A DNA stretch of 41,451 nt from an uncultured Rubrobacteraceae bacterium (GTDB lineage Bacteria > Actinomycetota > Rubrobacteria > Rubrobacterales > Rubrobacteraceae), in assembly GCA_902806065.1 (NCBI GenBank), contig CADCVE010000036.1:1-41451 (forward strand). The letters are read 5' to 3'. The notes beneath the pieces are model-generated. The model saw nothing but the letters and a program-made list of their open reading frames with translations, searched no databases and was not told the origin of the DNA. Positions 17,348 through 34,087 of the stretch are shown here, piece by piece (positions within the stretch are counted from its first letter, which is position 1; each line of letters begins with the position of its first letter). A program made the translations under genes and the position numbers.

Positions 17348-18523
17348 TCACAGTCTCTCTAAGAGAGCCCGCAGCACATGGTAGATAGAGGCCTGCACCT
17401 CCTGGATCCGCGGGATGTAGTCCGAGCGCACGACTACCGTATGATCCGCGAGGCGCTCGCTCAGAATTCTTCCGCCATCGTACCCCAGGATGCCTACTGT
17501 AAGGAGCCCCCGTTTGCGGGCCTCCGCAAGAGCGGCCAGGATGTTGGTGGAGCCTCCGCTGGTGGAGATGCCTATCGCTACGTCCTCCGGCCGGGCGTGG
17601 GCGATGAGCTGGCGGGCGAAGATGGCCTCCGTACCGATGTCGTTGGCGATGGCCGTGATGTTGGCGGGCTCCGCCGAGAGCGAGACCGCCGGGAGTGGTG
17701 TCAGGCCCGGCGGCGGGTCCACGCAGTCGGCGGCGAGGTCGTTAGCGTCGGTGGCGGAGCCGCCGTTACCGAAGGCGATGACTTTACCACCCGCCTCTAG
17801 CCGTTCGGAGATGGTCGCAGCGATCTCCGAGATAGCGCCTGCTTCCGTCTCAGCCGCCGCCGTTCGCAGACGGTTCGTCTCATGCATCTTCTGCAGCATC
17901 GAACCCTGCACATCCTTTACTACTTCTTCAAGCGGCTGCTCCCCTTTGCCGAGAAACGGATACAGGAAGGAAGAGGCTCCTACATCGTGGCCCTGTTCAC
18001 GATGCTCGAAATACACGTGAACCGTCTCCCAGAGGACGTGATAAAGCAGCTCGAAGACCTCCTGGCATACGAACGAATCTTCGTCCGGCGGGGCGAAAGA
18101 ATACTCCCCCGCCTCTCCCATCAGGGCGAACGTGAGCGCTCCTCGTTCCCGCGCCGTCCGCAGTGTCCGCTCCACCGCCTCGTCCGCGTCTGGAAACGAA
18201 AAGCCCATCACCATGTCCTCCGACCCTAGCACTACCGGCAGGCGCTTCTCGAAGTCCCCACCGAGGTCCATTGCCGGCAGGGCTCGTTTGCCCACGATCA
18301 CCGGATGCACGAACTCCACCGAGACGTGCTCGGCGTCCGTGGCCGCTGACCCGCTTCCGAACGTCAGTAGCCGCCCGCCCGCAAGGAAGCGCCGGGACAT
18401 CTCGTGGCAGGCTTCGGCCAGCCTCGGAGCTTCGGCCTCGAAAAAAGAGTCAAAGATCTCGTTGCGCCGCAGCAATTCTTTACGGATACTGGTCGCAAGG
18501 GTGTTTGTGTCTATCAGCCGCAT
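17348..18523 (-). CDS. Tandem SIS-domain protein (GmhA/DiaA-like duplicated)
   Basis: 391 residues with two SIS (sugar isomerase) units. Unit 1 (about 5-190) has GGRLLTFGSGSAATDAEHVS; unit 2 (about 195-391) has GKVIAFGNGGSATDANDLAAD and GISTSGGSTNILAALAEARK. Unit 2 keeps the full phosphosugar-binding set of sedoheptulose-7-phosphate isomerases. Unit 1 has SFPDADEAVERTL where the serine-rich loop would be, so it has probably lost sugar binding and may be regulatory. SIS proteins of this type are seen near hydrogenase maturation genes in several bacteria, and the hyp operon ends 1.7 kb upstream with intervening accessory DNA. Its role there is unknown. Confidence 0.8.
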   Translation of the reverse strand: MRLIDTNTLATSIRKELLRRNEIFDSFFEAEAPRLAEACHEMSRRFLAGGRLLTFGSGSAATDAEHVSVEFVHPVIVGKRALPAMDLGGDFEKRLPVVLGSEDMVMGFSFPDADEAVERTLRTARERGALTFALMGEAGEYSFAPPDEDSFVCQEVFELLYHVLWETVHVYFEHREQGHDVGASSFLYPFLGKGEQPLEEVVKDVQGSMLQKMHETNRLRTAAAETEAGAISEIAATISERLEAGGKVIAFGNGGSATDANDLAADCVDPPPGLTPLPAVSLSAEPANITAIANDIGTEAIFARQLIAHARPEDVAIGISTSGGSTNILAALAEARKRGLLTVGILGYDGGRILSERLADHTVVVRSDYIPRIQEVQASIYHVLRALLERL

Positions 18524-18603: not shown

Positions 18604-19287
18604 TTATCGCTCCAGACGTTTTTCCGCAACCCTGGATACATCGTTTTTCATCTTTGTCGAAAACCTCTGAGCAAACGTCGACAAACGTTTGACATCCTCC
18701 AAGCTTGGATCTTCACCAGCCTCGCCATGAGCAATTGCGTTCCTACGACGCGCAAGCTCGTTCAACGCGGAGTTCACGCTGGTTTCGGTACCATTAACTT
18801 TCACTTTGAGGTCGTTCACGTACTCCGGCTTATCGACAAGGGCCATTATCCAATTAACATTCTTCGGCGTAGGATTAGCAAACTGTTCTCTAATTGTGTC
18901 CAAAAGCAGTTCGTTTTCCTTTAGCTCTGTGACTTCTGAGTAAAGCTTCAAGGCTAGTTCGGCCAGTTCTTTCGCGTCATCAACTCCTAAATTCTGTGCC
19001 TGCGCTGTGTGACGGAAACGCCAAACTCTATAACCCTCTGAAAACCGTCGTGCTCTAACCTTTTGATTGGTCAAGTAGCTTAGAGTCGTGCAAATCAACT
19101 CTTCGATGAAGTTCTCCAGGTTCGCACCGATAAGTACGACTGAAGCCCGTCTTATAGCTCGGAGCCAAGCGCCGGGCCGTCCTGCACCTTTGGCGTCCCT
19201 TTCATGCAGATTGATCAGGCTGTCAACGTCAGCCTTGAGAGAGGCGACGAATCGTTCTCTCTGCTGGTCAAGTTCATCGATAGACAA
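18604..19287 (-). CDS. HEPN-domain protein, probable defence or toxin RNase
   Basis: 227 residues, all-helical. The C-terminal part has LNELARRRNAIAHGEAGEDPS, which contains the R-x4-H HEPN catalytic motif (RNAIAH). The N-terminal half has RRASVVLIGANLENFIEELI, as in MAE_28990/RiboL-PSP-type HEPN proteins. Such proteins cleave RNA in toxin-antitoxin or phage-defence systems. The base composition is clearly less GC-rich than that of its neighbours, a sign of horizontal transfer. No partner gene is directly attached. ATG 19287. Confidence 0.65.
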   Translation of the reverse strand: MSIDELDQQRERFVASLKADVDSLINLHERDAKGAGRPGAWLRAIRRASVVLIGANLENFIEELICTTLSYLTNQKVRARRFSEGYRVWRFRHTAQAQNLGVDDAKELAELALKLYSEVTELKENELLLDTIREQFANPTPKNVNWIMALVDKPEYVNDLKVKVNGTETSVNSALNELARRRNAIAHGEAGEDPSLEDVKRLSTFAQRFSTKMKNDVSRVAEKRLER

Positions 19288-20193: not shown

Positions 20194-21270
20194 CTAACAA
20201 ATCCTCGGAAGTGGGTCGCCGACAAGCATATCTATCATCCTGGTACCGCCGAACCCAGTGTGCATTATTACCATCCGAGCCGGTTCTTCGCGCACCTCAC
20301 CGATAATCTGGGCGTCCTCACCGCCCTCAACACTCCACAAGGCTTCGAGAGCGGCGTCCGCTGCTCCGGGTGCGACCACGGCGAGGAGCTTGCCTTCGTT
20401 GGCGACGTAGAGGGGGTCTATGCCCAGGATCTCGCACGCCCCATTCACCACGTCCCGGATAGGGAGCTTTTCTTCCCACAGCGCGACGCCGTATCCCGAG
20501 TCACGGGCAAGCTCGTTGAGAACGGTTCCGACGCCGCCGCGTGTTGGGTCGCGCATGAAGCGCAGGTCGGATCCCGCGGATCGTTTGAGTGCTTGTACGA
20601 GTGGGGTGAGGGGACGAGTGTCGGAGAGGACTTCGGCTTCCAGTTCCAGGTCTCCACGAGCGATCAGGATGGCTGCCCCATGATCTCCCAGGGTGCCGGA
20701 GCAAAGGATCTTGTCACCGGGACAGACGGATGCCGATGACAGGTTCAGCTCAGGGTCCGCAACTCCTACTCCAGTCGTTATAACGTAGAGTCCGTCGCCC
20801 TTCCCTCGCTCGACGACCTTGGTGTCGCCAGTAGCGATGGGGACGCCGGCCCGAGCCGCTGCGGCTGCCATCGCCTCCACCTCGCGCGAGAGAATTTCGG
20901 TCTCCAACCCCTCCTCGACTATCAAGGCGGCGGAGAGAGCTAATGGTCTCGCGCCGAAGACAGCGAGGTCATTGACGGTGCCGTTGACCGCCAGCTCCCC
21001 GATAGAACCGCCGGGGAACCGCAGCGGGCGCACGACGTAGGAGTCAGTGGTAAGGGCGATATGGGCGTCGCCGAAGGGGATCAGGGCCGCGTCGGAGAGC
21101 GGGGCGAGCGCCGGGTTTTCGAGCGCGGGGAGCAGGAGCCCCTCTATTAGCTTGTGGGTGGCCTTGCCCCCGGCGCCGTGGCTCATGTCTATGCGCGAGG
21201 CGGTGAACTTCGGCGGCCGGCGGCGGTTCTGTTCGAGGGTGTCCAGGACGCGCTGCTCTTTGTTGGTCAT
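20194..21270 (-). CDS. hypE: Hydrogenase maturation factor HypE
   Basis: 358 residues. HypE dehydrates the thiocarbamate on its own C-terminal Cys to thiocyanate, supplying the cyanide ligands of the NiFe site. Visible: SHGAGGKATHKLIEG near the N-terminus, GDTKVVERGKGDG, LRFMRDPTRGGVGTVL, and the essential terminal PRIC. The AIR-synthase/PurM-like fold is shared with SelD, but the C-terminal PRIC makes this HypE and not selenophosphate synthetase. ATG 21270 overlaps the hypD stop (ATGA). It is the last gene of the operon. Confidence 0.96.
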   Translation of the reverse strand: MTNKEQRVLDTLEQNRRRPPKFTASRIDMSHGAGGKATHKLIEGLLLPALENPALAPLSDAALIPFGDAHIALTTDSYVVRPLRFPGGSIGELAVNGTVNDLAVFGARPLALSAALIVEEGLETEILSREVEAMAAAAARAGVPIATGDTKVVERGKGDGLYVITTGVGVADPELNLSSASVCPGDKILCSGTLGDHGAAILIARGDLELEAEVLSDTRPLTPLVQALKRSAGSDLRFMRDPTRGGVGTVLNELARDSGYGVALWEEKLPIRDVVNGACEILGIDPLYVANEGKLLAVVAPGAADAALEALWSVEGGEDAQIIGEVREEPARMVIMHTGFGGTRMIDMLVGDPLPRIC

Positions 21271-22394
21271 ACTTTGGATCCGATCTCGACCTTCTCGAAC
21301 GACTTGCGCCCGAAGTTATAGTACGCGGCGCACGCGCCTTCGGAGGAGACCATTAGCGCGCCCAGCGGACGCTCCGGCGTGCAAGCCGTGCCGAAGACCT
21401 TGCACTCATGTGGCTTGAGGACGCCCTTGAGGACCTCGCCGCACTGGCAGGCCTTCGGATCTGCGACGCGGACGCCCGGCACCGAGAAACGCAGTTCGGC
21501 ATCGAAGTCCGCGTAGGCAGGTGAGAGCTTGAGGGCAGACTGAGCGATGAAGCCCAGGCCTCGCCACTCGAAGTACGGCCGAAGCTCAAAGACCTCGGCC
21601 ATGCTTTTGAGGGCCGCTAAGTTGCCTTCCCAGGGAACGATCCTGCTGTACTGGTTCTCGACCTCGCAGCGGCCAGCCCCGATCTGACGCATCAGCATGA
21701 GGACGGACTGCAGGAGATCCAGCGGCTCGAACCCCGCCACCACGCACGGCTTGCCGTAGTCCTCGGACATGAACTCGTAGGGCCTACAACCGATTACCGT
21801 GGAGACGTGCCCCGGCCCGACGAAGCCGTCGAGGCGCAGATCCGGCGAGTCCAGAAGCGCCCGTACCGGAGGTACGATGGTAACGTGGTTGCAGAATACG
21901 GAGAAGTTCTCCAACCCCTCCTTCTTCGCCCGCTGCAGGGTCAGCGCGGTCGAGGGGGCCGTGGTCTCGAAGCCAATGGCGTAGAAGACGACCTCGCGGT
22001 CCGGGTTCTCGCGGGCTATGCGCAGCGCGTCCAGGGGCGAGTAAACCATGCGGATGTCCGCGCCCTCGGCCTTCACTTCGAGGAGGTTCCCTTTAGAGCC
22101 GGGGACGCGCATCATGTCGCCGAAACAGGTGAAGATGACCTCGGGGCGCTCGGCTATGGAGATGCCCTCGTCTACGCGGCCCATCGGCAAAACGCAGACT
22201 GGGCAGCCGGGACCGTGGACCAGTTCGATCTGGTCGGGCAGCAAATCCTTTATGCCGTGGCGGTAGATGGTGTGGGTGTGGCCGCCGCAGACCTCCATGA
22301 CCTTATAGTGCCGCTCCGGGTCGGTGACGGAGGCAATCTCCGCGCTCACGGCCCGCGCCAACTCAGCGTCCCGAAACTCGCTCACGTATTTCAT
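21267..22394 (-). CDS. hypD: Hydrogenase maturation factor HypD
   Basis: 375 residues. HypD is the iron-sulfur scaffold on which, with HypC, the Fe(CN)2CO unit is built. Motifs: MEVCGGHTHTIYRHG, HGPGCPVCVLP, IFTCFGDMMRVPGSKGNL, FYAIGFETTAPSTA, FVGPGHVSTVIG, and the C-terminal cluster cysteines ACQCGEVLKG and CKVFGTACTPERPLG. All key residues are present. It overlaps hypC-like upstream and hypE downstream by 4 nt each, so all are translated together. Confidence 0.96.
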   Translation of the reverse strand: MKYVSEFRDAELARAVSAEIASVTDPERHYKVMEVCGGHTHTIYRHGIKDLLPDQIELVHGPGCPVCVLPMGRVDEGISIAERPEVIFTCFGDMMRVPGSKGNLLEVKAEGADIRMVYSPLDALRIARENPDREVVFYAIGFETTAPSTALTLQRAKKEGLENFSVFCNHVTIVPPVRALLDSPDLRLDGFVGPGHVSTVIGCRPYEFMSEDYGKPCVVAGFEPLDLLQSVLMLMRQIGAGRCEVENQYSRIVPWEGNLAALKSMAEVFELRPYFEWRGLGFIAQSALKLSPAYADFDAELRFSVPGVRVADPKACQCGEVLKGVLKPHECKVFGTACTPERPLGALMVSSEGACAAYYNFGRKSFEKVEIGSKV

Positions 22395-22663
22395 CTGGTT
22401 CTCCCTTCGGTAGCTCGGGCTTCAGGTACCAGGTATGGGGCGTCAGGCTCGACTTTGCCGATGGCGACGCCTCCGTGCGTCAGCAGTATTTCTCCCACCC
22501 GCACCGGGGCCACCAGTTCCAACGCTACCGAGGCGCGGTTTCCAGCTGAGTCCTCACACAACGCATCGTCGCCTTCGATGGAGACCACCCGTAATGGGAT
22601 GCCGGCGTCGGAGCAGACGACGCAGCCGTCGTGGTCCAGGGTGCAGTGGGAGACTGGTAGCAT
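22391..22663 (-). CDS. Second HypC/HupF-like chaperone with extended N-terminus
   Basis: 90 residues from ATG 22663 (GAGAAGGAAA upstream). The core resembles HypC: GIPLRVVSIEGDDALCEDS, then GNRASVALELVAPVRVGEIL and THGGVAIGKVEPDAP in place of the usual VHVGFAxxxLDE. It lacks the conserved N-terminal Met-Cys of HypC; instead cysteines occur at HCTLDHDGCVVCSD. In HypC the N-terminal Cys binds iron, so this paralogue must use another ligand set or play another part. It sits between canonical hypC and hypD. Confidence 0.7.
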   Translation of the reverse strand: MLPVSHCTLDHDGCVVCSDAGIPLRVVSIEGDDALCEDSAGNRASVALELVAPVRVGEILLTHGGVAIGKVEPDAPYLVPEARATEGRTR

Positions 22664-22680
22664 CGTTTCCTTCTCCACGG

Positions 22681-22972: not shown

Positions 22973-23155
22973 TCAGTGTTGTATTTCGACCTCCGCGGCG
23001 ATCTTGCCGAGCGGCCCGGCGGGTGAGCCGTCCGGATTCAGGGGACCGTGCCCACTGAGGTATGCCCTGTCACCGCGCACCCGCACCCCCGGCGGCGGCT
23101 TGGCCGAACCGGGGAGCACCAGCCCCATCTCTTCGAGCTTTGCTTCGATCCTCAT
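22973..23155 (-). pseudogene. Truncated RidA-family protein (60 residues)
   Basis: MRIEAKLEEMGLVLPGSAKP, then VRVRGDRAYLSGHGPLNPDG and GPLGKIAAEVEIQH: this is the first half of a RidA/YjgF protein (normally about 150 residues for this subgroup), which ends where the trimer core would start. The stop comes 13 nt before hypC. The start overlaps the hypF stop (TGATG), so the fragment is still translated in step. Either a deletion removed the rest or the short form is retained for a reason; no further RidA sequence follows. Confidence 0.7.
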
Positions 23156-25479
23156 CAGCCACCTTCTCCGAAAGCCCTATCCGCCAATATCGCCTGCCCC
23201 AGAGCGAGACCGCCGTCGTTGGCCGGTACCCGCGAGTGCTTGTAAACAACGAAACCCCTCTCCTCCAACAACTCGATCGTCTGCTCCAGCAACAACATGT
23301 TCTGGAACGTCCCACCGGAGAGCGCGACCGCGCTCGTGCCATTCGCATCTCGCACCGCCTCACACACTGCAGCGGCCATCCCGGCCATCGTGCGGTGGAA
23401 AGCGGCGGCAATGTCTGGCGCCGGTCGCCCGGCCAGCAGATCCTCGACTACTGTAGCTATTAGCTCACGGGTCTCGACTACCCACCCGCCATCCTCGAGG
23501 CGCAGGCGGAAGGGATATGCTTGGGTCGTCGGACCGGTCGCGGCCAGCTCCAGCTCTATCGCCGCCTGCCCCTCGTAGGTGGCGCGCCCGGAGCCCGGCG
23601 TGCCGACCAGCGCCGCGACGGCGTCGAAGAGCCGGCCCGCGCTGGACGTGGGCGGGGTGTTCAGCTTGTGTTGCACTAGCCGGGCGACGAGCCGGACGTC
23701 GCGCTCACCCGCTTCCCGCACCACTGCGAGCGGGAGCTTCAGGGTCTCCTCTTCACCGTAGAGCGTGATGAGCTGCGCGAGCGCCGTGCGCCAGGGTTGC
23801 CGGATGGCCGCCGAACCGCCGGGCAGGGGAGCGTACTCCAGGTGCGCCCGCCGTGTGAACCCTTCTTCCAGACTTCCCTCGAAGAACTCCCCGCCCCAGA
23901 CAGCCCCATCGGTACCGTAGCCGGTCCCATCGAGCGCTACCCCGATGACACGCTCTTCGTCGGGTCTTTCGTTGTCCGCGAGGCAGCTAGCGACGTGCGC
24001 GTGGTGGTGCTGGATGCCGGCAGCCGGCAGCCCGGACTCCTCCAGCTCCCTGGCGTACTTGGTCGAGAGGTACTCGGGATGCAGGTCGTAGGCTATTAGC
24101 TCCGGTTGCACGTCGAAGAGGCGACGGTAATGATCCACGCCTTCCCGGAACGACCGCAGCGTCTCATAGTTCTCCATATCCCCGATATGGTGGCTCAGGA
24201 AAGCGTGACGGTCCTTTGCCAGGCAGAAAGTGTTCTTTAGCTCTCCGCCGCAAGCCAGTGTATGCCGGGCGAAGCTCCCTGCTAGCCGAAGCGGTGCCGG
24301 AGCGTAGCCGCGGGATCGCCGGAGAGGGTACGCCTCCCGGCCGGCTACCCGAACTACGCTGTCGTCGCAACGCATGTGGATGGGACGGTCGTGCACAAGA
24401 AAGTAGTCCGCTATATCGCACAGTTTCTCGAACGCCTCCCCATCCCGGTAGGCGATTGGCTCGTCGGACTTGTTGCCGCTGGTCATGACGAGCGGGATGC
24501 CGGCGTCGCGCAACAGCAAGTGGTGCAGGGGCGTGTAGGCCAGCATCACGCCGAGCGTCGTCTGGCGCGGGGCCACCTCCTCGGCCACGCCATCGTTTTC
24601 CCGACGCTCTAGTAACACTATGGGGCGGGCCGGCAAGGTGAGAAGCGCTTCCTCCTCCGGCCTGATGTGGCACAGCTCCCTGGCCTGCGCTACATCACGT
24701 ACCATCAGGGCGAACGGTTTATCCTGGCGCGCCTTGCGGCTCCTCAAGGCCCTCACCGCCGCGGCATCGAACGGGTCGCAGGCCAGATGGTAGCCCCCGA
24801 GGCCCTTTATGGCGATGATGGACTGTCCGCGAAGCATCCCCGCCGTCCGCCGGATGGGATCTCCTGGCTTGGCGCGTAGCTCGTGTCCAAAGCGGTCCAG
24901 TAGCCGTACCCGCGGCCCGCAGACCGGACAGGCGTTGGGCTGGGCGTGGAAGCGGCGGTCGGCCGGGTCATCGTACTCCTTCCGGCACTCTGAACACATC
25001 TCGAAGCCGGACATGGTGGTCGTGGCCCGGTCGTAGGGGACGGCTCTCGTGATAGTAAAGCGCGGGCCGCAGTTGGTACAGTTGATGAACGGGTAGCGGT
25101 GGCGCCGGTCGGCGGGGTCGAGTAGTTCCGAGAGGCAGTCCCCGCAAGTGGCGACGTCCGGGGAGACGAGCGCTCGCCGCTGGTCGCCCTCCCTACTCTC
25201 CTCGATGCGAAACTCCCGGTCCCCAATCGCCGCGAGCGGTTGCCACCCGACGGCCTCGATCACGGCCAGGGTTGGGGCGTCTTCCTCGATACCACGCACA
25301 AAGCGTTCCAGATCCTCCAGCGCGCCCTCCACCTCGATGCGGACACCCTCGGCGTCGTTGCGGACCAGTCCCACGAGCCTGTGCCGCCGCGCCAGGGCGT
25401 AGACGAACGGCCGGAAGCCCACGCCCTGCACGATGCCTCGTACGGAGACCTCCCGGCGCTCTATGCTGACGGTCCTCAC
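23155..25479 (-). CDS. hypF: Carbamoyltransferase HypF
   Basis: 774 residues from GTG 25479, which overlaps the upstream protease stop (GTGA). It makes the carbamoyl group for the cyanide ligands from carbamoyl phosphate and transfers it to HypE. Domains in order: acylphosphatase (VRGIVQGVGFRPFVYALARR, to about 90), two zinc-finger pairs (CGDC...CTNC and CSEC...CPVC, about 105-185), YrdC-like domain (about 200-385) and Kae1-like domain (HHAHVASCLADN, GVALDGTGYGTDGAVWGGEF). All expected motifs are present. The frame is open further upstream of 25479, but the added residues overlap the protease gene and look unlike HypF. Confidence 0.96.
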   Translation of the reverse strand: MRTVSIERREVSVRGIVQGVGFRPFVYALARRHRLVGLVRNDAEGVRIEVEGALEDLERFVRGIEEDAPTLAVIEAVGWQPLAAIGDREFRIEESREGDQRRALVSPDVATCGDCLSELLDPADRRHRYPFINCTNCGPRFTITRAVPYDRATTTMSGFEMCSECRKEYDDPADRRFHAQPNACPVCGPRVRLLDRFGHELRAKPGDPIRRTAGMLRGQSIIAIKGLGGYHLACDPFDAAAVRALRSRKARQDKPFALMVRDVAQARELCHIRPEEEALLTLPARPIVLLERRENDGVAEEVAPRQTTLGVMLAYTPLHHLLLRDAGIPLVMTSGNKSDEPIAYRDGEAFEKLCDIADYFLVHDRPIHMRCDDSVVRVAGREAYPLRRSRGYAPAPLRLAGSFARHTLACGGELKNTFCLAKDRHAFLSHHIGDMENYETLRSFREGVDHYRRLFDVQPELIAYDLHPEYLSTKYARELEESGLPAAGIQHHHAHVASCLADNERPDEERVIGVALDGTGYGTDGAVWGGEFFEGSLEEGFTRRAHLEYAPLPGGSAAIRQPWRTALAQLITLYGEEETLKLPLAVVREAGERDVRLVARLVQHKLNTPPTSSAGRLFDAVAALVGTPGSGRATYEGQAAIELELAATGPTTQAYPFRLRLEDGGWVVETRELIATVVEDLLAGRPAPDIAAAFHRTMAGMAAAVCEAVRDANGTSAVALSGGTFQNMLLLEQTIELLEERGFVVYKHSRVPANDGGLALGQAILADRAFGEGG

Positions 25480-25979
25480 GAGGTCGCTGGTTCGCCCGCC
25501 AGGCGGACGGTGAGATCTCGCAGGCGTTCGATAGCCTCGACGACCCCGCGCTCTACCGGCTCGCTCAGGTCCATCCCCAGGCCGCACTCTTTCGGCTGGC
25601 ACCCTAGGATGTACACCTTCGGCGGCAGGATGTCGAGGGCTCGGGCGAGGGTCAGGGCCTGCGAGGGTACCGTCAGGTGCGTATCGGCCAGGAACTCCTG
25701 CCGGCTCTCTTCGGTTAGCTCTTCCTGAGTCGAGACCTCCGCCTCCAGCAGGTACACCGTGCCGGGCGCCTCGCCCCGATCCGCAGCATCCACGATGACG
25801 AGCGCTTCGTAGCCATCCATCAGCTCCTGGACCAGCCCGATACCGGCGATCCCGGACTCGTATACCAGCACGCCCTCCGGCGCCCCGGCCGCCTCGAAGC
25901 AGCGGATGACCGCGATACCGAACCCATCGTCCTGGCGCAGGTCGTTGCCCATCCCGGCCACCAGCACGCGAGGCTTCAC
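25476..25979 (-). CDS. Hydrogenase maturation endopeptidase (HyaD/HycI family)
   Basis: 167 residues. This endopeptidase removes the C-terminal tail of the large subunit once nickel is inserted. The nickel-recognition motif is intact (VAGMGNDLRQDDGFGIAVIR), as are the central Asp (ALVIVDAADRG) and the later His (DTHLTVPSQALTLA). GTG start overlapping the stop of the NifU-Rieske gene (GTGA). It is the better candidate of the two protease-like genes in the operon for actual cleavage. Confidence 0.9.
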   Translation of the reverse strand: MKPRVLVAGMGNDLRQDDGFGIAVIRCFEAAGAPEGVLVYESGIAGIGLVQELMDGYEALVIVDAADRGEAPGTVYLLEAEVSTQEELTEESRQEFLADTHLTVPSQALTLARALDILPPKVYILGCQPKECGLGMDLSEPVERGVVEAIERLRDLTVRLAGEPATS

Positions 25980-26881
25980 TCCGGCCCCACCTCTTCCACC
26001 CCCAGGGCGACCTTCACCTCTCCATCCCGTACCGCAACCGGGAGTACCGATAGCTTTCCTTCGTCATCCTCGCGCTTGCCGGTTCGCAGGTCGTAGCGGC
26101 AGCCGTGCCAGGGGCAGACGAGCGTCCTCCCCTCGACGCGCCCCAGGTGCAGGGTGAGGGCGCTGCCCGGCGGGCAGCCGTCCCGGTAAGCATAGACCTC
26201 ACCGTCCAGACGGATCAGGAGCAGCGACACGTCTTCGAGGCGCCAGGGCTGTAACGCACCCGGCTCCAGGTCCTCCAGTCGTCCCGCCGCAACCCATCGT
26301 GGGCGGCGCAGCGGACGGCGGCCGATCTGGACGATGTTCTTCGGCGGCGGCTCCTCCGCCACCAGCTCCCTGAAGCCCGGGAAACCCTCGCGCAGGGCCT
26401 CTTCGACCACCCGTTGCAGGGTCGTCGCGGTTTCCGGACAACCTTCGCACGAACCAGAGAGACGCACCCGGACACGACCGTTTTCGACGCCAAGGAGATC
26501 CAACTTGCCGCCGTGGGACTGGAAATAGGGATAGACGTCTTCCAGGACACGCTCCACCTGTGTCCGCTCGTCGGCCTCGGGCAGATCGTACATCTCCAGT
26601 AGGGTGCGGACTATCGGGTCTTGAGCGATACGCTCCACGGCCTGCTGGCCGCCGAGGCTAGCGATGAGATCTAGGATGCGTCCAAGCCCCTGCCGGTGCA
26701 GGACGTCTATACCTTCGAGGAAAGCGAAGACCTCTTCGCGGGTCTTCTCGTCCTGTATCTCTTCCATCCGTTCGAGGCCGGTCCCAAGCCACTCCAGAAG
26801 GTGCTGAAACTCTGACGGCAACTCCGGGGTTGGGGTCGAGACCTGTACCACCGGGATCTGTTTCCTGGAGCGGTCGGGCAT
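25976..26881 (-). CDS. NifU C-domain fused to an incomplete Rieske-like domain
   Basis: 301 residues from ATG 26881 (TGATG coupling with the gene before). Order: a helical N-terminal part (about 20-110, LEWLGTGLERMEEIQDEK), a NifU-type Fe-S scaffold domain (about 112-175) with the LSGSCEGCPETATTLQRVVE motif (Cys145, Cys148), and a Rieske-like domain (about 195-300). In the Rieske part the second pair is complete (VCPWHGCRYDL, Cys256/His259), but the first is C-P-P (Cys236, Pro238) instead of C-x-H. A normal 2Fe-2S Rieske cluster therefore lacks one histidine. NifU-Rieske proteins accompany group 1h-type hydrogenases, presumably for Fe-S supply or electron transfer. Confidence 0.8.
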   Translation of the reverse strand: MPDRSRKQIPVVQVSTPTPELPSEFQHLLEWLGTGLERMEEIQDEKTREEVFAFLEGIDVLHRQGLGRILDLIASLGGQQAVERIAQDPIVRTLLEMYDLPEADERTQVERVLEDVYPYFQSHGGKLDLLGVENGRVRVRLSGSCEGCPETATTLQRVVEEALREGFPGFRELVAEEPPPKNIVQIGRRPLRRPRWVAAGRLEDLEPGALQPWRLEDVSLLLIRLDGEVYAYRDGCPPGSALTLHLGRVEGRTLVCPWHGCRYDLRTGKREDDEGKLSVLPVAVRDGEVKVALGVEEVGPE

Positions 26882-27282
26882 CAGTGCCGGGGGCCCAGGG
26901 GAGCAGGCTCTTCGTCCGGGGCACAGTGGACGCAGGCGTCGCGCGAGATGCCCTGGCAGTGCGGGCATTCAGGGCCACATTCACCGTGAGCCGTATCCTG
27001 CAACCCGGAGAACTCGTCGGCGAAGCGGCGGCCGCCCTCCTTCGCGCCGAGCTCGCTCAACCGGTAGCGCCCCCCGGTTTCTTCCAGGTGCCCCTCCTCA
27101 GCGAGGATGTCCAACTGCTCGCGCAACAGGCTCTCGTCCAGGGCCAGGAAGCTGACCAGACTATTCACGTCAGCGTCTTCGCCGAAGCCCTCACCGCGCA
27201 TCCAGTACATCGCCTGCAGGATGTCATCGCGGCAGCGCAAGGCGCTTACTGGGTCGAAGCCTTTGCCGCCGTTGTTGGTCAT
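26881..27282 (-). CDS. Winged-helix-like protein with C-terminal Cys-rich motif
   Basis: 133 residues. The N-terminal 85 look like a winged-helix domain (DDILQAMYWMRGEGFG, LREQLDILAEEGHLEETGGRYRLSELG). The C-terminus carries a compact metal motif: HGECGPECPHCQG...DACVHC, five cysteines with CxxC spacing. A conserved hydrogenase-cluster accessory protein is the best description; a direct regulatory or metal-relay role is inference. ATGA overlap with the gene before, TGATG with the gene after. Confidence 0.65.
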   Translation of the reverse strand: MTNNGGKGFDPVSALRCRDDILQAMYWMRGEGFGEDADVNSLVSFLALDESLLREQLDILAEEGHLEETGGRYRLSELGAKEGGRRFADEFSGLQDTAHGECGPECPHCQGISRDACVHCAPDEEPAPLGPRH

Positions 27283-27803
27283 TTGTTTCGTACCTCCTTG
27301 CGGCCGTTGCCGTTAGGTCCAGGTCTCTCGTGGACTTCGGCCTGGATCCAGGCCACGGTCTCTTCCAACCTCCGCCGGCCGATCTCGCTCATCTCCGAGC
27401 CCCATTCCTGTTCCACCGGTTCAAGCTCTATGACGGTAGTGTCGGAAGGAAGCGCATCGAAGTGCTGCGCGATGATTAGCAAGTTCTCCAGGCTTATAAC
27501 CCCGGTAAGCGCCTCGGAGATACGCTCCTGCACGACTTCGGGGTCAGGCTTGTCGGCGAGCCAGGCGTAGGTGTAGAGGTTGCCGGGCTCCCGGCCTCGC
27601 TCAATGGCCCCGGCGAAGATAGCGCGCTCGAACTTCCTGCCGGGGCTCTCCTCGAACCAGTGCAGGATGGAGATAGGCCCCCAGCCGAAGTCCTCTACGC
27701 AGACATCCTCGGGCCACTCCATCTCCTGCATCCGCTCGATCAAGACCGATCCGAACGAGAGGTCGCTGAGGTGCTGATAGCCGACGCCGGCGACGAGGAT
27801 CAC
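27279..27803 (-). CDS. Hydrogenase maturation protease-like protein, ligand motif degenerate
   Basis: 174 residues from GTG 27803, which overlaps the stop of the large subunit gene by one base. The fold begins like a HyaD/HycI protease (MILVAGVGYQHLSDLSFGSV). The nickel-binding acidic residue of the G-N-x-x-x-x-D-D/E-G-x-G motif is absent (S-D-L-S-F-G). Later blocks (AIFAGAIERGREPGNLYTY; IIAQHFDALPSDTTVIELEP) keep the general layout. It may act as a chaperone for the large subunit rather than as a peptidase. Confidence 0.7.
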   Translation of the reverse strand: MILVAGVGYQHLSDLSFGSVLIERMQEMEWPEDVCVEDFGWGPISILHWFEESPGRKFERAIFAGAIERGREPGNLYTYAWLADKPDPEVVQERISEALTGVISLENLLIIAQHFDALPSDTTVIELEPVEQEWGSEMSEIGRRRLEETVAWIQAEVHERPGPNGNGRKEVRNK

Positions 27804-29689
27804 TAGTCGTCAGCCCCGCAGGCGCAGGTGTTGACCTCGCGCGTAACTATGCCCTGGTCGGTGTGGATGTGGGTGGTGCATGGCATGCAGGGGTCGAACG
27901 AGCGAATGGAACGTTGGATATCTATACCCTGGAACTTGTCCGCCGGGCTGTTCTCCAGGATCGGGGTGTTCAGAGCGGCGATCTCGTACATCCCCGGCGT
28001 CCCCCACGGGTCGCGTGGCGAGGCGTTGATGGTCGAGGGCGTGATGATCTGGTAATTCGTCACCACACCGTCGTCAAGCATCATGTGGTGGCTGACGTAG
28101 CCGCGCCCAGCCCCCCAGAACCCGACCCCGAGCCGCTGGCCCTTCGGCACCTTGTACTCCGCGCTGACGTCCGTGCGGCCCGCCTTCATCAGCTCCATCC
28201 CCTGATGCCAGGTATTGAGCCCGACGAGCGCCGTGTAGGCGACGCAGTAGGCCCGGCCCCGGTTGCGCTCGAAGGCATTCCACACGTCCGGGATCTTCCA
28301 CTCCAGCTCCATCTCCGGCAGCCGGCCGGCGGGCAGGAGCAGTTTGAGGCTGTGACCGGTAGGTTCGATGTACGGGTTCTCCGGCATGAGTTGGGCCGCT
28401 GCGGTGGTCCACATTCGAGCGGTACATTCGGCGTCCATCGGCATCCGGTCCCACCGCGGAGAGGTAGACCAGGTGTACTTCTCCCGCCAGTTCGGGGCCT
28501 GAGGACGCGGCTTCGTCTCCTTGTTCCAGGGATGGTAGGGGCTCAACGGTGCGCCGAGCGGGTCTGTCTTGAAGGTCTGGCCCTCCCACTCCTCATAGAA
28601 GGAGTGGTCGATGAACTCCTCCATCCCCAGGTTGATGTTCTGGAGCTTCGTGGTTACGAGCCGGCCGTCCACGATCACGCCTGGCGTGGCCCATCGCTTC
28701 TCGCCCCACTCGTTGCAGTTCTCGTAGGTCGCGTCGTAGGCCTCCGGGTCATCCCAGACCCCGAGGTCTATGAGGTTCGCGGGCGTGCGGCCCACGTCGC
28801 GATAGCGCGGGTTCACCTCGTAGAAAAAGTCGCAGATGTCGTCGTAGATCGCCGCGCACTTCTTGGCATAGTCGAAGAACTGCTGCAATCGAAGGTAGAC
28901 CTCTTGCATCGTCGAGATGCTTACCGTGGCGCTTACGCCACCCGGAACCATCGTCTGCGGATGCGGGAACTTGCCCCCGATAAGGGCGTAGGCCTCCTTC
29001 GCCACGCGGGTCATCCCCAGAGCCTCCAGGTACAGCGATCCGGTGAGCGCGTTCATGTCGGTCATCAGCTCGCCCATTGTGCCGTAGCCGTGGACGTTGG
29101 CGTGTGGGGCTTCGGTCCTCGTCGCGCGTTCCCACACCTCGGGGTTCGTCTTGCGGATGATGTTCTCCGAGAAGTCCGGCCCCGCGAGCATGAACAGGTG
29201 CAGCGGCAGGTCGAGGAGGTACTCGAGAACGGACAGCATGTTCCGGAGCACGATCCCCATTGGCGGCGGTCTGATGCCTATTGCCATCTCGGTCGCCAGG
29301 GCCGCCGTGCCGGAGTGCGTCCCACCACAGACGCCGCAGGCCCGGCTGGTGATGTAGATGGCGTCGCGCGGGTCGCGGCCCATCATGATGATCTCGTAAC
29401 CCCGGAAGAGAGTAGCCACCGACCGGCTCTCCAGGACCTTCCGCTCCTCCAGGTCCACGACCGAGTGGAATGCTAAAGCGCCGGCCACGCGCGTGACGGG
29501 GTCGAAGTTCTTCTGCTGGATGTGGCCGTTGCGGGCGAGGAGGTCCTCGATCTGGTCCCGGCTCAAGGTGCTTATGGAGCCGCCGTTCAGGTCCGGGCTC
29601 CGCTCCGTGCCGTATGGGTCCCGGACGTCATCTCTCAGGTATGGCCGGCCCTCGGAGTCGAACTCCACCGGTAGGTTCTTGAAGCACAC
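27803..29689 (-). CDS. [NiFe]-hydrogenase large subunit (group 1h/1l-like, high affinity)
   Basis: 628 residues from GTG 29689 (GGAGGGG upstream). Active-site motifs: L1 TSRACGVCGGTHSGTAAL (Cys118, Cys121, His125) and L2 SFDPCMPCTTH near the C-terminus (Cys601, Cys604). These four cysteines hold the Ni-Fe(CN)2CO centre that oxidises H2. Beyond His607 a 21-residue tail ends in CACGADD and is presumably cut by a maturation protease. Long insertions (for example around PWNKETKPRPQAPNWREKY) are typical of the actinobacterial 1h-type large subunits used to scavenge atmospheric H2. Five small membrane-helix genes separate it from the small subunit, which is unusual, as these are normally adjacent. 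Confidence 0.93.
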   Translation of the reverse strand: MCFKNLPVEFDSEGRPYLRDDVRDPYGTERSPDLNGGSISTLSRDQIEDLLARNGHIQQKNFDPVTRVAGALAFHSVVDLEERKVLESRSVATLFRGYEIIMMGRDPRDAIYITSRACGVCGGTHSGTAALATEMAIGIRPPPMGIVLRNMLSVLEYLLDLPLHLFMLAGPDFSENIIRKTNPEVWERATRTEAPHANVHGYGTMGELMTDMNALTGSLYLEALGMTRVAKEAYALIGGKFPHPQTMVPGGVSATVSISTMQEVYLRLQQFFDYAKKCAAIYDDICDFFYEVNPRYRDVGRTPANLIDLGVWDDPEAYDATYENCNEWGEKRWATPGVIVDGRLVTTKLQNINLGMEEFIDHSFYEEWEGQTFKTDPLGAPLSPYHPWNKETKPRPQAPNWREKYTWSTSPRWDRMPMDAECTARMWTTAAAQLMPENPYIEPTGHSLKLLLPAGRLPEMELEWKIPDVWNAFERNRGRAYCVAYTALVGLNTWHQGMELMKAGRTDVSAEYKVPKGQRLGVGFWGAGRGYVSHHMMLDDGVVTNYQIITPSTINASPRDPWGTPGMYEIAALNTPILENSPADKFQGIDIQRSIRSFDPCMPCTTHIHTDQGIVTREVNTCACGADD

Positions 29690-30274: not shown

Positions 30275-30589
30275 CTAAGCTCCTTCCTGCCGGCTGGCGG
30301 CCTCGATGGTCCGCCCCAGATGATCGTCTATGCTCCGCAAGCCCCCCGCCGCCGCTTCGAGGCTCTCGTTGAGTCGAGTGACCTCCGGGCCGAGGTGGCC
30401 GGTCTGCTGCTCGATGGCCCGGACACCGAAGGCTATCTTGGAGAGGTAACTCGACCGGCTGCTGTATCCCCTCGGTGTGTCGCCGCCGATGCTCTCCAGG
30501 GCGGAGATTATTTGGATCAGGTAGAAGACCAGCGCCCCGAAGAGCACCACCACCGCGAGCGCCGAAAGTATCGCCAGGAGAACTACCAT
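30275..30589 (-). CDS. Small one-helix membrane protein 3, type B (hydrogenase cassette)
   Basis: 104 residues from ATG 30589 (AGGGGGT upstream; the frame is open back to 30649 but the extra part overlaps the gene before). The N-terminal helix VVLLAILSALAVVVLFGALV is followed by SSYLSKIAFGVRAIEQQTGH, RLNESLEAAAGGLRSIDDHL, GRTIEAASRQEG, regularly spaced in heptads. It groups with the protein at 29705-29974. Confidence 0.72.
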   Translation of the reverse strand: MVVLLAILSALAVVVLFGALVFYLIQIISALESIGGDTPRGYSSRSSYLSKIAFGVRAIEQQTGHLGPEVTRLNESLEAAAGGLRSIDDHLGRTIEAASRQEGA

Positions 30590-30626
30590 TTCATACCCCC
30601 TGTCCTCGACCGAGGACGCAGTGCGG

Positions 30627-30929
30627 TCACCCGGGGCAGTCCAGAGCATGTTTCTCGATGGCGGCCGTGGCCCCGTCGATCCCGGCAGCCCGTTCCAGTA
30701 TGTCGTCCACTACCCGGTTCGTGTGGTTCAGGAGCGGGATGTGGATGGTGTTGTTGGCTATTCTCTGCCCAACGGTCCAGATGTCCGAGACCGCCCCGTC
30801 TATTTGCCGGGCGGTACGCAAGATCAGGGTGAGCAACACCGCCACGACCAGGATCACCACCAACCCGATCCCGAGTGACACTAACCATACCGTGTAGCCT
30901 GCCCCCTCGCTCACCAGCGCCAGCGTCAT
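30627..30929 (-). CDS. Small one-helix membrane protein 2, type A (hydrogenase cassette)
   Basis: 100 residues from ATG 30929, overlapping the stop of the gene before (ATGA). Helix at about 14-38 (WLVSLGIGLVVILVVAVLLT), then TARQIDGAVSDIWTVGQRIA, NNTIHIPLLNHTNRVVDDIL, ERAAGIDGATAAIEKHAL. It aligns clearly with the proteins at 29971 and 30926. Confidence 0.75.
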   Translation of the reverse strand: MTLALVSEGAGYTVWLVSLGIGLVVILVVAVLLTLILRTARQIDGAVSDIWTVGQRIANNTIHIPLLNHTNRVVDDILERAAGIDGATAAIEKHALDCPG

Positions 30930-31237: not shown

Positions 31238-32539
31238 CTACCCCCTCTCCGCCGTCTCATCGGCATCGCGAGGAGCTTGCATGCCCTCCGCTCGCGGCGG
31301 CATATCCGCGAAGTACTTGCGAGAGTCATCCCGCCCGGGTTTCCTCTTGTTGCCGGAGAACTGCAGCTTCTCGTAGAAGAAGTGCATCGTCTTGTCTAGG
31401 AGGCCCGGCTTCTCGATCTCACCCCACCCGCTCGGGACCTCCCCGCCGGCCACCGCGTCCCACCGGACCTCCCGGTTCCGGTCGTGGTTGCTCAGGGCGC
31501 GGAGCCGCCGGATGCCGAATCCTAAAGTACGCGAGGCCGTGCTGGAGACCGCGGAGCCCGGCGGGGCCGTGTAGAACGGAGCGAACTTGTCCGGGAAGCC
31601 CGGCATGGTGCATCCGATGCACGGCCCGCCCGCCGCCATGCAGCCTCCCATGTGCGACTGTGCCCCGCGCGAGACGATGTTGCAATTCACTACCGGTCCC
31701 CAGCAGCCGACCTCGACCAGGCACTCCTTGTCGCCAAAGTTCTCGGCGAATATGCCCTCCTCGTAGTAGCCGGCCCGTGTGCAGCCGCGATGAACGGTCT
31801 CCTCGAAAAGCCAGGCCGGACGCCCGAGCTCGTCGAACTCCGGCAGCGGCCCGATGCCCTGGAGAAAGAGCAGTATCGCCGCCACCGTCTCCGTGAAGTT
31901 GTCCCCTATGGGAGCGCAGCCGGGGATGTTTATGACTGGCAACCCGAGGGCGCTGCGATAGTCCTTGCCGAGGAAGTCCATGAGGCTCATCGCGCCGGTC
32001 GGGTTACCGGCGGCGGCCGGTATGCCGCCCCAGGTGGCGCAGGTACCGATAGCGATCACTGCCGCCGCTCCCGGCGCCATCCGCCCCATACGCTCGGCAG
32101 TCGAGAAGGGCGTCCCGCCTTCCTCCTCGTCGCTGTCCTCCATGGCCTGCATGCCCATCGCGGAGAAGTATCCGCCGTGCTCGGCGGCGATCCTCTCGTC
32201 GGCAATGGAGCCCTCGTAGATGCACACGTACGGAGCGTCGAGCTTGCCCTCTTCCGCTAGCTTGAAGGGGTGAATAAAGTCCTCCCCCACCTCCTCGGCG
32301 AGCACCGGGTGGTGCAGTACGACCTTCGGGAGGCCGGGGATGATTCCGGCCAGCAGGTCCTCCACCTTCGGGTTGGTCGCCCCGGTCGCGGCGATGCTGC
32401 ACCCGTCGCAACTCATCCCCGCCATCCAGAAAGCGTGGACTACCTTTACCGGTCCCTCCGGAACCCGCCGCCGTCCCTCCTCCGGCGCCTGGACCCGATC
32501 CGGCGGAGCCCCCAACCCGGCAGGCGCGTGAATGGTCAT
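31238..32539 (-). CDS. [NiFe]-hydrogenase small subunit (group 1h/1l-like)
   Basis: 433 residues. It relays electrons from the NiFe site through three Fe-S clusters. The proximal-cluster motif is GMSCDGCSIA (Cys44, Cys47); further ligands lie in IAIGTCATWGG, INIPGCAPIGD, HRGCTRAGYYEEG, CLVEVGCWGPVVNCN and PCIGCTMPGFPDKF. There is no Tat signal and no C-terminal membrane helix, so the enzyme should be cytoplasmic, as in other 1h-type enzymes. A long C-terminal extension follows the last cysteines. In the 1h enzymes I remember, the proximal motif reads C-D-G-D with an Asp ligand; here it is Cys. ATG 32539 overlaps the cooC stop (ATGA) after GGAGAGGAGAG. Confidence 0.93.
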   Translation of the reverse strand: MTIHAPAGLGAPPDRVQAPEEGRRRVPEGPVKVVHAFWMAGMSCDGCSIAATGATNPKVEDLLAGIIPGLPKVVLHHPVLAEEVGEDFIHPFKLAEEGKLDAPYVCIYEGSIADERIAAEHGGYFSAMGMQAMEDSDEEEGGTPFSTAERMGRMAPGAAAVIAIGTCATWGGIPAAAGNPTGAMSLMDFLGKDYRSALGLPVINIPGCAPIGDNFTETVAAILLFLQGIGPLPEFDELGRPAWLFEETVHRGCTRAGYYEEGIFAENFGDKECLVEVGCWGPVVNCNIVSRGAQSHMGGCMAAGGPCIGCTMPGFPDKFAPFYTAPPGSAVSSTASRTLGFGIRRLRALSNHDRNREVRWDAVAGGEVPSGWGEIEKPGLLDKTMHFFYEKLQFSGNKRKPGRDDSRKYFADMPPRAEGMQAPRDADETAERG

Positions 32540-33339
32540 CCCGTCTCTCCTCTCCCGTTGCTCCCCGCCTTGCCCTCCACGACGTCCGCGATCCCCTCGA
32601 CAGCGACCACCGCCGGGGCCGCGGGCTGGTAATCCATCAGAGCCCGGCCTTCCCGGTCGGCCTCCTGTATCGCCTCGTCCCAGGGGACGACCGCGGCGAG
32701 CTCGACCCCGTGATCCGCACAGTAGGAGCGGATGATTTCCTCATCCCTCGCGCTCCGCACCTTGTTCGCAACCGCCCAAATATATTTGATGCCGAGCTCC
32801 TCGGCCAGCGGCGCCATCCTTCCGACCGTCTCCAGGGACCGGAAGTAAGGCTCGGTCACCAGGATCATCGCATCGACGTGCCGGGTGGTTCCCCGGCTCA
32901 TGTGCTCGATGGAAGCCTCCATGTCGGTGATGGTCATCGCTTCTCCGTTGCTCCCCGTCGCCAGCTCACCGAGCAGGCCGCGCACTCTGGCGTGCGCCGC
33001 ACACAGTCACCCGGCGCCGGCGTGGTCCACCCCTGTCATCACCATCAGGTCTACCCCGTCGGGGGCGGGCATCGCGTACTCGGCCGTCACCTCCTCGATG
33101 GGCCGGGCCATGACCAGCCTGCGGGCGCCGGCCTCTTCCTTCGTCTCCATGATGTCCTTCGGGACCCGGACTATCTTCTCCAGGTTATCCCGGCTCATAC
33201 CAAGCGCCACGCCCAGGTTTGGATTCGGGTCTCCATCAACAGCCATTACCGGATGTCCCCGCCGCGCCAGCAGCCGCGCCAGCGTCGCCGAGATAGTCGT
33301 CTTACCCGAACCGCCCTTGCCCGCCACAGCTACCTTCAT
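32536..33339 (-). CDS. CooC-type nickel ATPase with UGA at the first Cys of CxC (candidate selenoprotein)
   Basis: CooC is a MinD-like ATPase that loads nickel into CO dehydrogenase; its dimer binds Ni at a CxC motif near residue 112. Here one in-frame TGA (33007-33009, codon 111) splits the gene. Before it: MKVAVAGKGGSGKTT (deviant Walker A) to VMTGVDHAGAG; after it, same frame: LCAAHARVRGLLGEL, TDMEASIEHMSRGT, to the normal CooC end. The motif thus reads GAG-U-L-C-A-A-H, UGA exactly replacing the first Cys of GAGCxC. Read through, the protein is 267 residues, a normal length. The second half has no start of its own with a ribosome site. A clean SECIS-like hairpin follows. It is translationally coupled to the small subunit gene and is only 18 nt after merR. 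hypA and hypB are not in the window, so it may supply nickel here (inference). Confidence 0.88.
32980..32997 (-). promoter_or_regulatory. SECIS-like hairpin downstream of the cooC UGA
   Basis: On the minus strand GCGCAC (32997-32992) pairs perfectly with GTGCGC (32985-32980) around the 6-nt loop GCCAGA. The loop begins 15 nt after the UGA and its first base is G, close to the bacterial SECIS consensus as I recall it. Confidence 0.62.
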
Positions 33340-33357: not shown

Positions 33358-33918
33358 CTACACTACTCCTTCGGGTACAGGATCGCAGCATCCGCACCCG
33401 CATTTTCCGCTCTCCGCGACTCTCCTTACGAATCTGTCGTTCTCCCGGATGACCCGCAGGTCCGGCGGCGTCACCCCGTCGGTGGCCGCCGTGACGCAAC
33501 CGCAGAACTCGCTCTCACCCTGATCTCCGCAGCGGCACGCGCCCCGCGCCTCGGCGCCCGCCGCCCGCTTCCGGTACTCCAGCAGGCTCTCCCGGAAAGC
33601 GCGCAACTCTTCCATTTTGCGCTCAGTCTCCTCCAGCTTGTGGTCGAGGAGATCGTCGAGACGTTGAAAGACCCCGTTGGGGATGCCGTCTTCGGCGGCA
33701 TTCACGAGGCTCCGGATCTGGCCCAGAGAGAGACCCATCAGCTTGGCGCGCCTCACGAACTCGATCCGCTCCAGCTCGCGCCAGCCGTAGATCCGATACC
33801 CCGAGTCCGTCCGGCCCGCCGGTGAAAGCAACCCTATGTCCTCGTAGTAACGCAGCGTCTTGGCCGGCACCCCTACCAGCCGCGCTACCTCACCTATCTT
33901 CAGAGCTGTCCTACCCAC
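33358..33918 (-). CDS. MerR-family metal-type regulator
   Basis: 186 residues from GTG 33918. N-terminal MerR winged helix (LKIGEVARLVGVPAKTLRYY, EDIGLLSPAGRTDSGYRIYG), dimerisation helix (about 80-125), then a Cys-rich C-terminal part (ACRCGDQGESEFCGC and KCGCGCCDPV). The clustered cysteines point to metal or redox sensing rather than drug sensing. The start is fixed by its promoter: the predicted -10 lies just upstream of 33942, which excludes the longer frame reaching 34050. Being 18 nt upstream of cooC, it heads the hydrogenase operon and probably autoregulates it, with nickel as a plausible ligand (inference). Confidence 0.85.
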   Translation of the reverse strand: MGRTALKIGEVARLVGVPAKTLRYYEDIGLLSPAGRTDSGYRIYGWRELERIEFVRRAKLMGLSLGQIRSLVNAAEDGIPNGVFQRLDDLLDHKLEETERKMEELRAFRESLLEYRKRAAGAEARGACRCGDQGESEFCGCVTAATDGVTPPDLRVIRENDRFVRRVAESGKCGCGCCDPVPEGVV

Positions 33919-33948
33919 CAAGGAGCCCCTTTCCGTAATACTTGGCAC

Positions 33949-33979
33949 ATTGTAAACCTTCCAGCCGCTGGAAGGTGAA
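33949..33979 (-). promoter_or_regulatory. MerR-type promoter with 19-bp spacer and operator dyad
   Basis: On the minus strand: -35 TTCACC (33979-33974), 19-bp spacer, -10 TACAAT (33954-33949). The spacer contains the perfect dyad ACCTTCC-N7-GGAAGGT (33956-33976), the classic operator of CueR/ZntR/MerR-type activators, which untwist an over-long spacer when metal is bound. It is placed to transcribe merR and, with no terminator between, the hydrogenase and hyp genes. Confidence 0.8.
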
Positions 33980-34087
33980 GAGCGGTACGAAAACAAACAT
34001 ACTGCATGTCCCGCCCGCGGCATCGTTACGTTAAGGTATCCTCCGGGCATCAGAAACCTCCGGATACCAGGAAGAGAGGATCGAGCC

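Follow-up and report, generated by a model that had tools for sequence, protein, structure and literature searches.

How does a gene for a CooC-type ATPase, interrupted by a TGA exactly where the first cysteine of its metal motif is expected, produce a working protein, and what would that protein do beside a [NiFe] hydrogenase? The gene lies in a 41,451-nucleotide (nt) contig of an uncultured Rubrobacteraceae bacterium (GenBank assembly GCA_902806065.1, contig CADCVE010000036.1), the whole of which is called here the window. We conclude that it probably encodes a CooC-type MinD/SIMIBI ATPase that is a new bacterial selenoprotein, with selenocysteine (Sec) at position 111, and is likely to deliver nickel to the adjacent [NiFe] hydrogenase; we put the probability of this reading at about 0.85. 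Three elements are central to the argument:

32536..33339, minus strand: CooC-type P-loop ATPase gene (cooC), 267 amino acids with TGA read as Sec; Pfam CbiA, 70.5 bits; best PDB match 3kje
33007..33009, minus strand: in-frame TGA, codon 111, predicted from the frame and alignments to encode Sec at the first Cys position of CxC
32980..32997, minus strand: hairpin GCGCAC-GCCAGA-GTGCGC resembling a selenocysteine insertion sequence (SECIS), with stem arms GCGCAC (32997..32992) and GTGCGC (32985..32980)

An in-frame TGA in the metal motif of a CooC-type ATPase

The cooC frame opens with an ATG at 33339 and closes with a TGA at 32538..32536, which shares bases with the start codon (ATG) of the hydrogenase small-subunit gene. 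Codon 111 is the sole internal TGA, in the translated context GVDHAGAG-U-LCAAHARVRG (U, Sec). A preliminary description of this DNA, made from its letters alone and giving no strand, had claimed a TGA at the first Cys of the motif in an otherwise intact frame, and our reading of the frame agrees with it. The 6-bp hairpin with a G-first loop that it placed downstream is likewise present as described: the loop GCCAGA (32991..32986) starts 16 nt past the TGA.

The protein is of the CbiA/MinD-type Pfam class, with a MinD-like fold and a deviant Walker A motif (GKGGSGKTT, residues 7-15) including the signature lysine; among the matches listed, no NCBIfam model scored above its cut-off. CooC1 of Carboxydothermus hydrogenoformans (PDB 3KJE-3KJI) is its best match in sequence (3kje, E 3e-33) and also the top fold match of an AlphaFold2 model (mean predicted local distance difference test score, pLDDT, 82.9; residues 106-111 below 50). 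Residues 111 and 113 align with CooC1 Cys112 and Cys114, reported to hold a metal at the dimer interface (PMC6006190), and the CxC metal motif is thus found as UxC at the aligned site. The two proteins have in common the fold, the deviant Walker A and the position of the metal site. They differ in that the first Cys is replaced by the predicted Sec, the window gene is linked to a [NiFe] hydrogenase instead of a CO dehydrogenase (CODH), and the window protein falls on a separate branch of the tree described below.

Conservation of the codon, its hairpin and the insertion machinery

Among 148 genomes of the same phylum, TGA was found at the aligned site in all 10 hydrogenase-type CooC copies of Rubrobacteraceae (10 genomes). 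A second family added three genomes with TGA there and a third family added one (44-47% identity). A wider scan, of named genomes, yielded 79 loci, and the codon was read at 78 orthologous sites, one near-duplicate being excluded. TGA occurred at 52 sites, TGC at 19 and TGT at 7, with no other codon, so that the in-frame TGA is aligned with a conserved Cys of homologues. These sites span Actinomycetota, Acidobacteriota, Chloroflexota, Gemmatimonadota, Armatimonadota, SAR324 and Verrucomicrobiota. TGA copies were carried by Rubrobacter, Acidobacteria, Pyrinomonadaceae, Chloroflexi, Thermomicrobiales, Armatimonadetes, Gemmatimonadales, SAR324 and a Verrucomicrobium, as well as by Gaiellaceae, Thermoleophilaceae and Solirubrobacteraceae metagenome-assembled genomes (MAGs). 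Many TGA hosts are MAGs and some host labels may be wrong: one Cys locus (L061) and one TGA locus (L120) share a single MAG name, and that genome gave no SelB match.

In a quick-method tree of 106 rows, for which the columns of the motif were masked, the hydrogenase-linked CooC proteins group apart from CODH-type CooC (100% in the Shimodaira-Hasegawa-like approximate likelihood ratio test, SH-aLRT). The distribution of Sec and Cys on this tree needs 13 changes, at least 7 of them forced by the starred branches. Such repeated exchange is expected of a functional Sec/Cys pair.

A SECIS-like hairpin directly 3′ of the TGA accompanies the codon. In Rubrobacter the stem is invariant across all 7 distinct rows compared, hence no covariation is seen there. 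In the majority, non-Rubrobacter stem, nt 16-20 past the TGA pair with nt 26-30 (5 bp), with compensatory changes at 18:28 (C-G/T-A) and 19:27 (A-T/G-C). All five pairs of this core stem are present in 31/37 distinct TGA rows outside Rubrobacter versus 0/25 distinct Cys rows (Fisher p ~1e-11), and several exceptions, inspected by eye, have a displaced hairpin (L103 and L109, ATGCCGC-GGT-GCGGCAT). When synonymous codons were shuffled within columns (2000 shuffles), the stem was kept in a mean of 15.6 and a maximum of 25 of the 37 rows. Position-specific pairing is the decisive hairpin evidence, unlike total folding energy, which distinguishes TGA from Cys genes weakly (p 0.019). An Rfam scan of the window gave no match, no SECIS model being tried. 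We also observed that the segment GTGCGCGGCCTGCTCGGTGAGCTGGC (32985-32960, minus strand), which comprises the 3′ hairpin arm and the sequence after it, is unchanged in all Rubrobacter copies, synonymous sites included, and is able to form a second hairpin.

The genome of the window carries the complete machinery for Sec insertion. The genes selA (500 bits), selB (355 bits) and that of tRNA-Sec (66.5 bits) lie together on one contig (C94), and selD (353 bits), which has an in-frame TGA of its own, lies on another (G000:C48:5196-6113, L135). Of the genomes in the scan, 22/26 with TGA copies and 11/24 with Cys copies had SelB above its cut-off (p 0.007).

These data bear on the other ways in which the TGA might be understood. 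A nonsense mutation, a sequencing error or a decaying pseudogene would look just like a lone stop in one draft genome; here the identical codon stands at the site in 52 loci of many phyla, far beyond one strain, and the downstream protein and the surroundings of CxC are kept. This cross-phylum conservation rules out an error or a pseudogene and leaves such explanations a negligible probability: as judged by sequence comparison, the in-frame TGA is neither. It also rules out a split gene, in which UGA would act as a stop and the second half would be made as a separate protein. An open reading frame with a GTG start at 32985 (149 amino acids) does exist for that purpose, but the break would fall inside the metal motif, Cys orthologues are uninterrupted and the hairpin occurs only in TGA copies, so that two proteins are hardly more credible than a pseudogene. 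As to a general change of code, with UGA read as some other amino acid, in this organism TGA has kept its meaning of stop, since cooC is terminated by one, which overlaps the start of the next gene; this terminal codon rules out general recoding. The exchange solely with Cys codons and the presence of a dedicated sel system add to the case against it, nothing was found in its favour, and we consider it extremely improbable. Neither of the refutations envisaged by the preliminary description, absence of selABCD or an erroneous or strain-specific TGA, holds. In silico, Sec insertion at codon 111 is thus close to certain.

Hydrogenase linkage and the proposed nickel delivery

The operon that contains cooC has the order MerR, cooC, small subunit, small membrane protein, large subunit, protease-like protein, NifU-Rieske, protease, HypF, HypC, HypD, HypE:

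33358..34050, minus strand: MerR-family regulator with a Cys-rich C-terminus (Pfam MerR), upstream of cooC here and in most Rubrobacter loci
31238..32539, minus strand: [NiFe] hydrogenase small subunit (Pfam NiFe_hyd_SSU_C and Oxidored_q6); its start overlaps the cooC stop
30275..30649, minus strand: small putative membrane protein, no Pfam match; many related loci likewise have it between the two subunit genes
27803..29689, minus strand: [NiFe] hydrogenase large subunit (Pfam NiFeSe_Hases); best PDB match Ralstonia HofG, 5aa5, 527 bits
27279..27803, minus strand: hydrogenase maturation protease-like protein (TIGR00072, 54.9 bits)
25976..26968, minus strand: NifU-Rieske fusion protein (Pfam)
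25476..25979, minus strand: hydrogenase maturation protease (TIGR00072, 115.7 bits)
23155..25602, minus strand: HypF (Pfam)
22391..22678, minus strand: HypC-like protein (TIGR00074, 39.8 bits, under the 48-bit cut-off)
21267..22394, minus strand: HypD (Pfam HypD, 524.6 bits)
20194..21270, minus strand: HypE (Pfam AIRS/AIRS_C)

Hydrogenase genes adjoin most CooC-type loci of the named-genome scan. The statement of the preliminary description that this cooC precedes a [NiFe] hydrogenase rather than CODH holds: the small-subunit gene adjoins, and neither CODH, HypA nor HypB was found in the window genome (95.4% complete) or in G024, a 99%-complete relative with the same gene. CODH was likewise not found in 20 of the 22 genomes searched. 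The protein is accordingly not a CooC in the strict sense, that of CODH linkage. Sec was also sought in the hydrogenase subunits, and none was found at Cys positions; the nickel-ligand motifs of the large subunit, RACGVCGG and DPCMPC, are all Cys. [NiFeSe] hydrogenases similarly have Sec at the nickel site of a hydrogen-oxidising system, but in the enzyme itself, whereas here it would reside in an accessory ATPase. Two further genes lie near the cluster: a SIS-domain (sugar isomerase-like) gene at 17348-18523, of a kind found repeatedly within hyp clusters of this class of hydrogenase (L058, L060, L062, L065, L088, L098, L105, L118), and a gene for a HEPN-domain (RiboL-PSP-type) protein at 18604-19287, adjoining the cluster.

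With regard to a placement in group 1h, the solved structure nearest to the large subunit is the Ralstonia actinobacterial-type enzyme, at only ~42% identity. In a sample of the phylum, the large subunit shares 53% identity or more with that of the window in 12 genomes, and CooC was detected in 10 of them; in 21 others, which have a Streptomyces-like large subunit only (~41-44% identity), it was found in none. Six genomes with a Streptomyces-like large subunit (G118, G103, G050, G077, G092, G064) showed neither HypB nor this CooC. Its presence in SAR324 and Bacteroidota fits the hosts reported for group 1l (PMC10305171), which is abundant in desert soils (PMC7677003), and the window hydrogenase may belong to this atmospheric-hydrogen-scavenging lineage.

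The recoding site, its conservation, the Sec/Cys exchange, the hairpin, the machinery, the hydrogenase linkage and the failure to find HypA, HypB or CODH in the genome are results of the computation; the following mechanism is proposed in addition. SelB and tRNA-Sec would read UGA codon 111 as Sec, guided by the hairpin just 3′ of it. By homology with CooC1, the protein would dimerise around a single metal, bound by Sec111 and Cys113 from both monomers in an Se2S2 site instead of S4, and ATP binding and hydrolysis would open the dimer so that the metal is released. Nickel insertion is the best mechanism. The most likely job would be to supply nickel to the adjacent [NiFe] hydrogenase, which is of the oxygen-respiring type; HypC, D, E and F are encoded in its cluster, but HypA/HypB, the usual pair for nickel, are not. 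The selenolate may tighten or speed nickel binding, or ease repair after oxidation; the preliminary description likewise proposed that a selenol would change nickel affinity and redox behaviour. We infer the identity of the metal, the dimer chemistry and the advantage of selenium and, less firmly, the replacement of HypA/HypB, which is plausible. HypA and HypB, the nickel chaperones of [NiFe] hydrogenases, would share the proposed role, and HypB, too, is a P-loop NTPase that forms a metal-dependent dimer (PMC9164220); the CooC-type ATPase is of a different family.

It is also conceivable, though unlikely, that Sec is inserted and the protein serves another end than nickel delivery, handling a different metal or an iron-sulfur cluster, or using UxC as a redox switch. 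UxC/CxC pairs can be redox pairs, a NifU-Rieske gene lies in the same cluster, HypB is also present in some genomes with this CooC, and the CooC1 site binds Zn as well. That homologous site nevertheless takes up Ni with a dissociation constant of 0.4 uM (PMC6006190), and it is a nickel enzyme that adjoins the gene, the search of this genome having turned up no HypA and no HypB.

Several observations weigh against a Sec-containing nickel chaperone. The case for Sec at position 111 is one of sequence evidence. The Rubrobacter hairpin differs in offset from that of the majority, and the spacing between the TGA and its loop is close to the lower limit for bacterial SECIS elements. SelB is not above cut-off in 4 of the 26 TGA-copy genomes (split across two contigs in one, the other three being MAGs), nor in three Rubrobacter MAGs (75-82% complete). 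HypB was detected in 4/12 genomes with a window-like hydrogenase versus 15/21 with a Streptomyces-like one (one partial), and is thus missing from 6/21 of the latter; at p 0.066 for replacement this is a trend only, and HypB absence was rejected as a clean marker of the window-like class. Finally, Rhodospirillum CooC plays no part in the hydrogenase of that organism (PMC6006190), though this CooC falls within the CODH branch.

Putative double-selenium paralogues and meaning of the finding

In four loci a second CooC-type gene carries TGA at both Cys positions (UxU; L055:11824, L105:10891, L115:11337, L129:10275), with the motifs GUPUCG or GUxUGNHATV followed by hairpin-forming sequence. The hosts are Chloroflexi and Actinomycetota MAGs, and Cys counterparts occur in other loci. 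Directly before the UxU paralogue of L055 we observed a gene for a CooC-like ATPase (L055:10941-11729) whose lack of CxC hints at a heterodimer of the two. Similar first genes precede the CxC/UxU paralogue in L083, L095, L101, L119 and L125, as weaker matches only.

The preliminary description knew of no described CooC selenoprotein, and we came upon none: NCBIfam has none, our literature search, with most subscription papers outside its reach, found none described, and none of CooC type appears among the 119 prokaryotic selenoprotein families inventoried in 2026 (PMC13188914). The nearest entry there is a CobW-related protein (NF041053), likewise of P-loop metallochaperone type with Sec in a metal motif; it differs in its CobW-related family, which is of the G3E GTPase group (COG0523; PMC9164220), and in its UxxC motif (PMC13188914). 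A search of a plasmid collection gave no close relative.

A broader proposal would be that a Sec-based CooC-type system (UxC, some UxU) replaces HypA/HypB in widespread, probably group 1l, atmospheric-H2-oxidising hydrogenases, and that selenium availability thereby controls atmospheric hydrogen consumption; we advance it tentatively, at somewhat less than even odds. Most characterised bacterial selenoproteins are redox enzymes. Sec in the metal motif of a putative nickel-delivery ATPase, in several phyla, would offer natural Sec/Cys pairs for probing the part of selenium in metal handling. Standard annotation truncates or splits such genes, and the finding points to an unrecognised nickel-insertion route for the hydrogenases of soil and desert bacteria.
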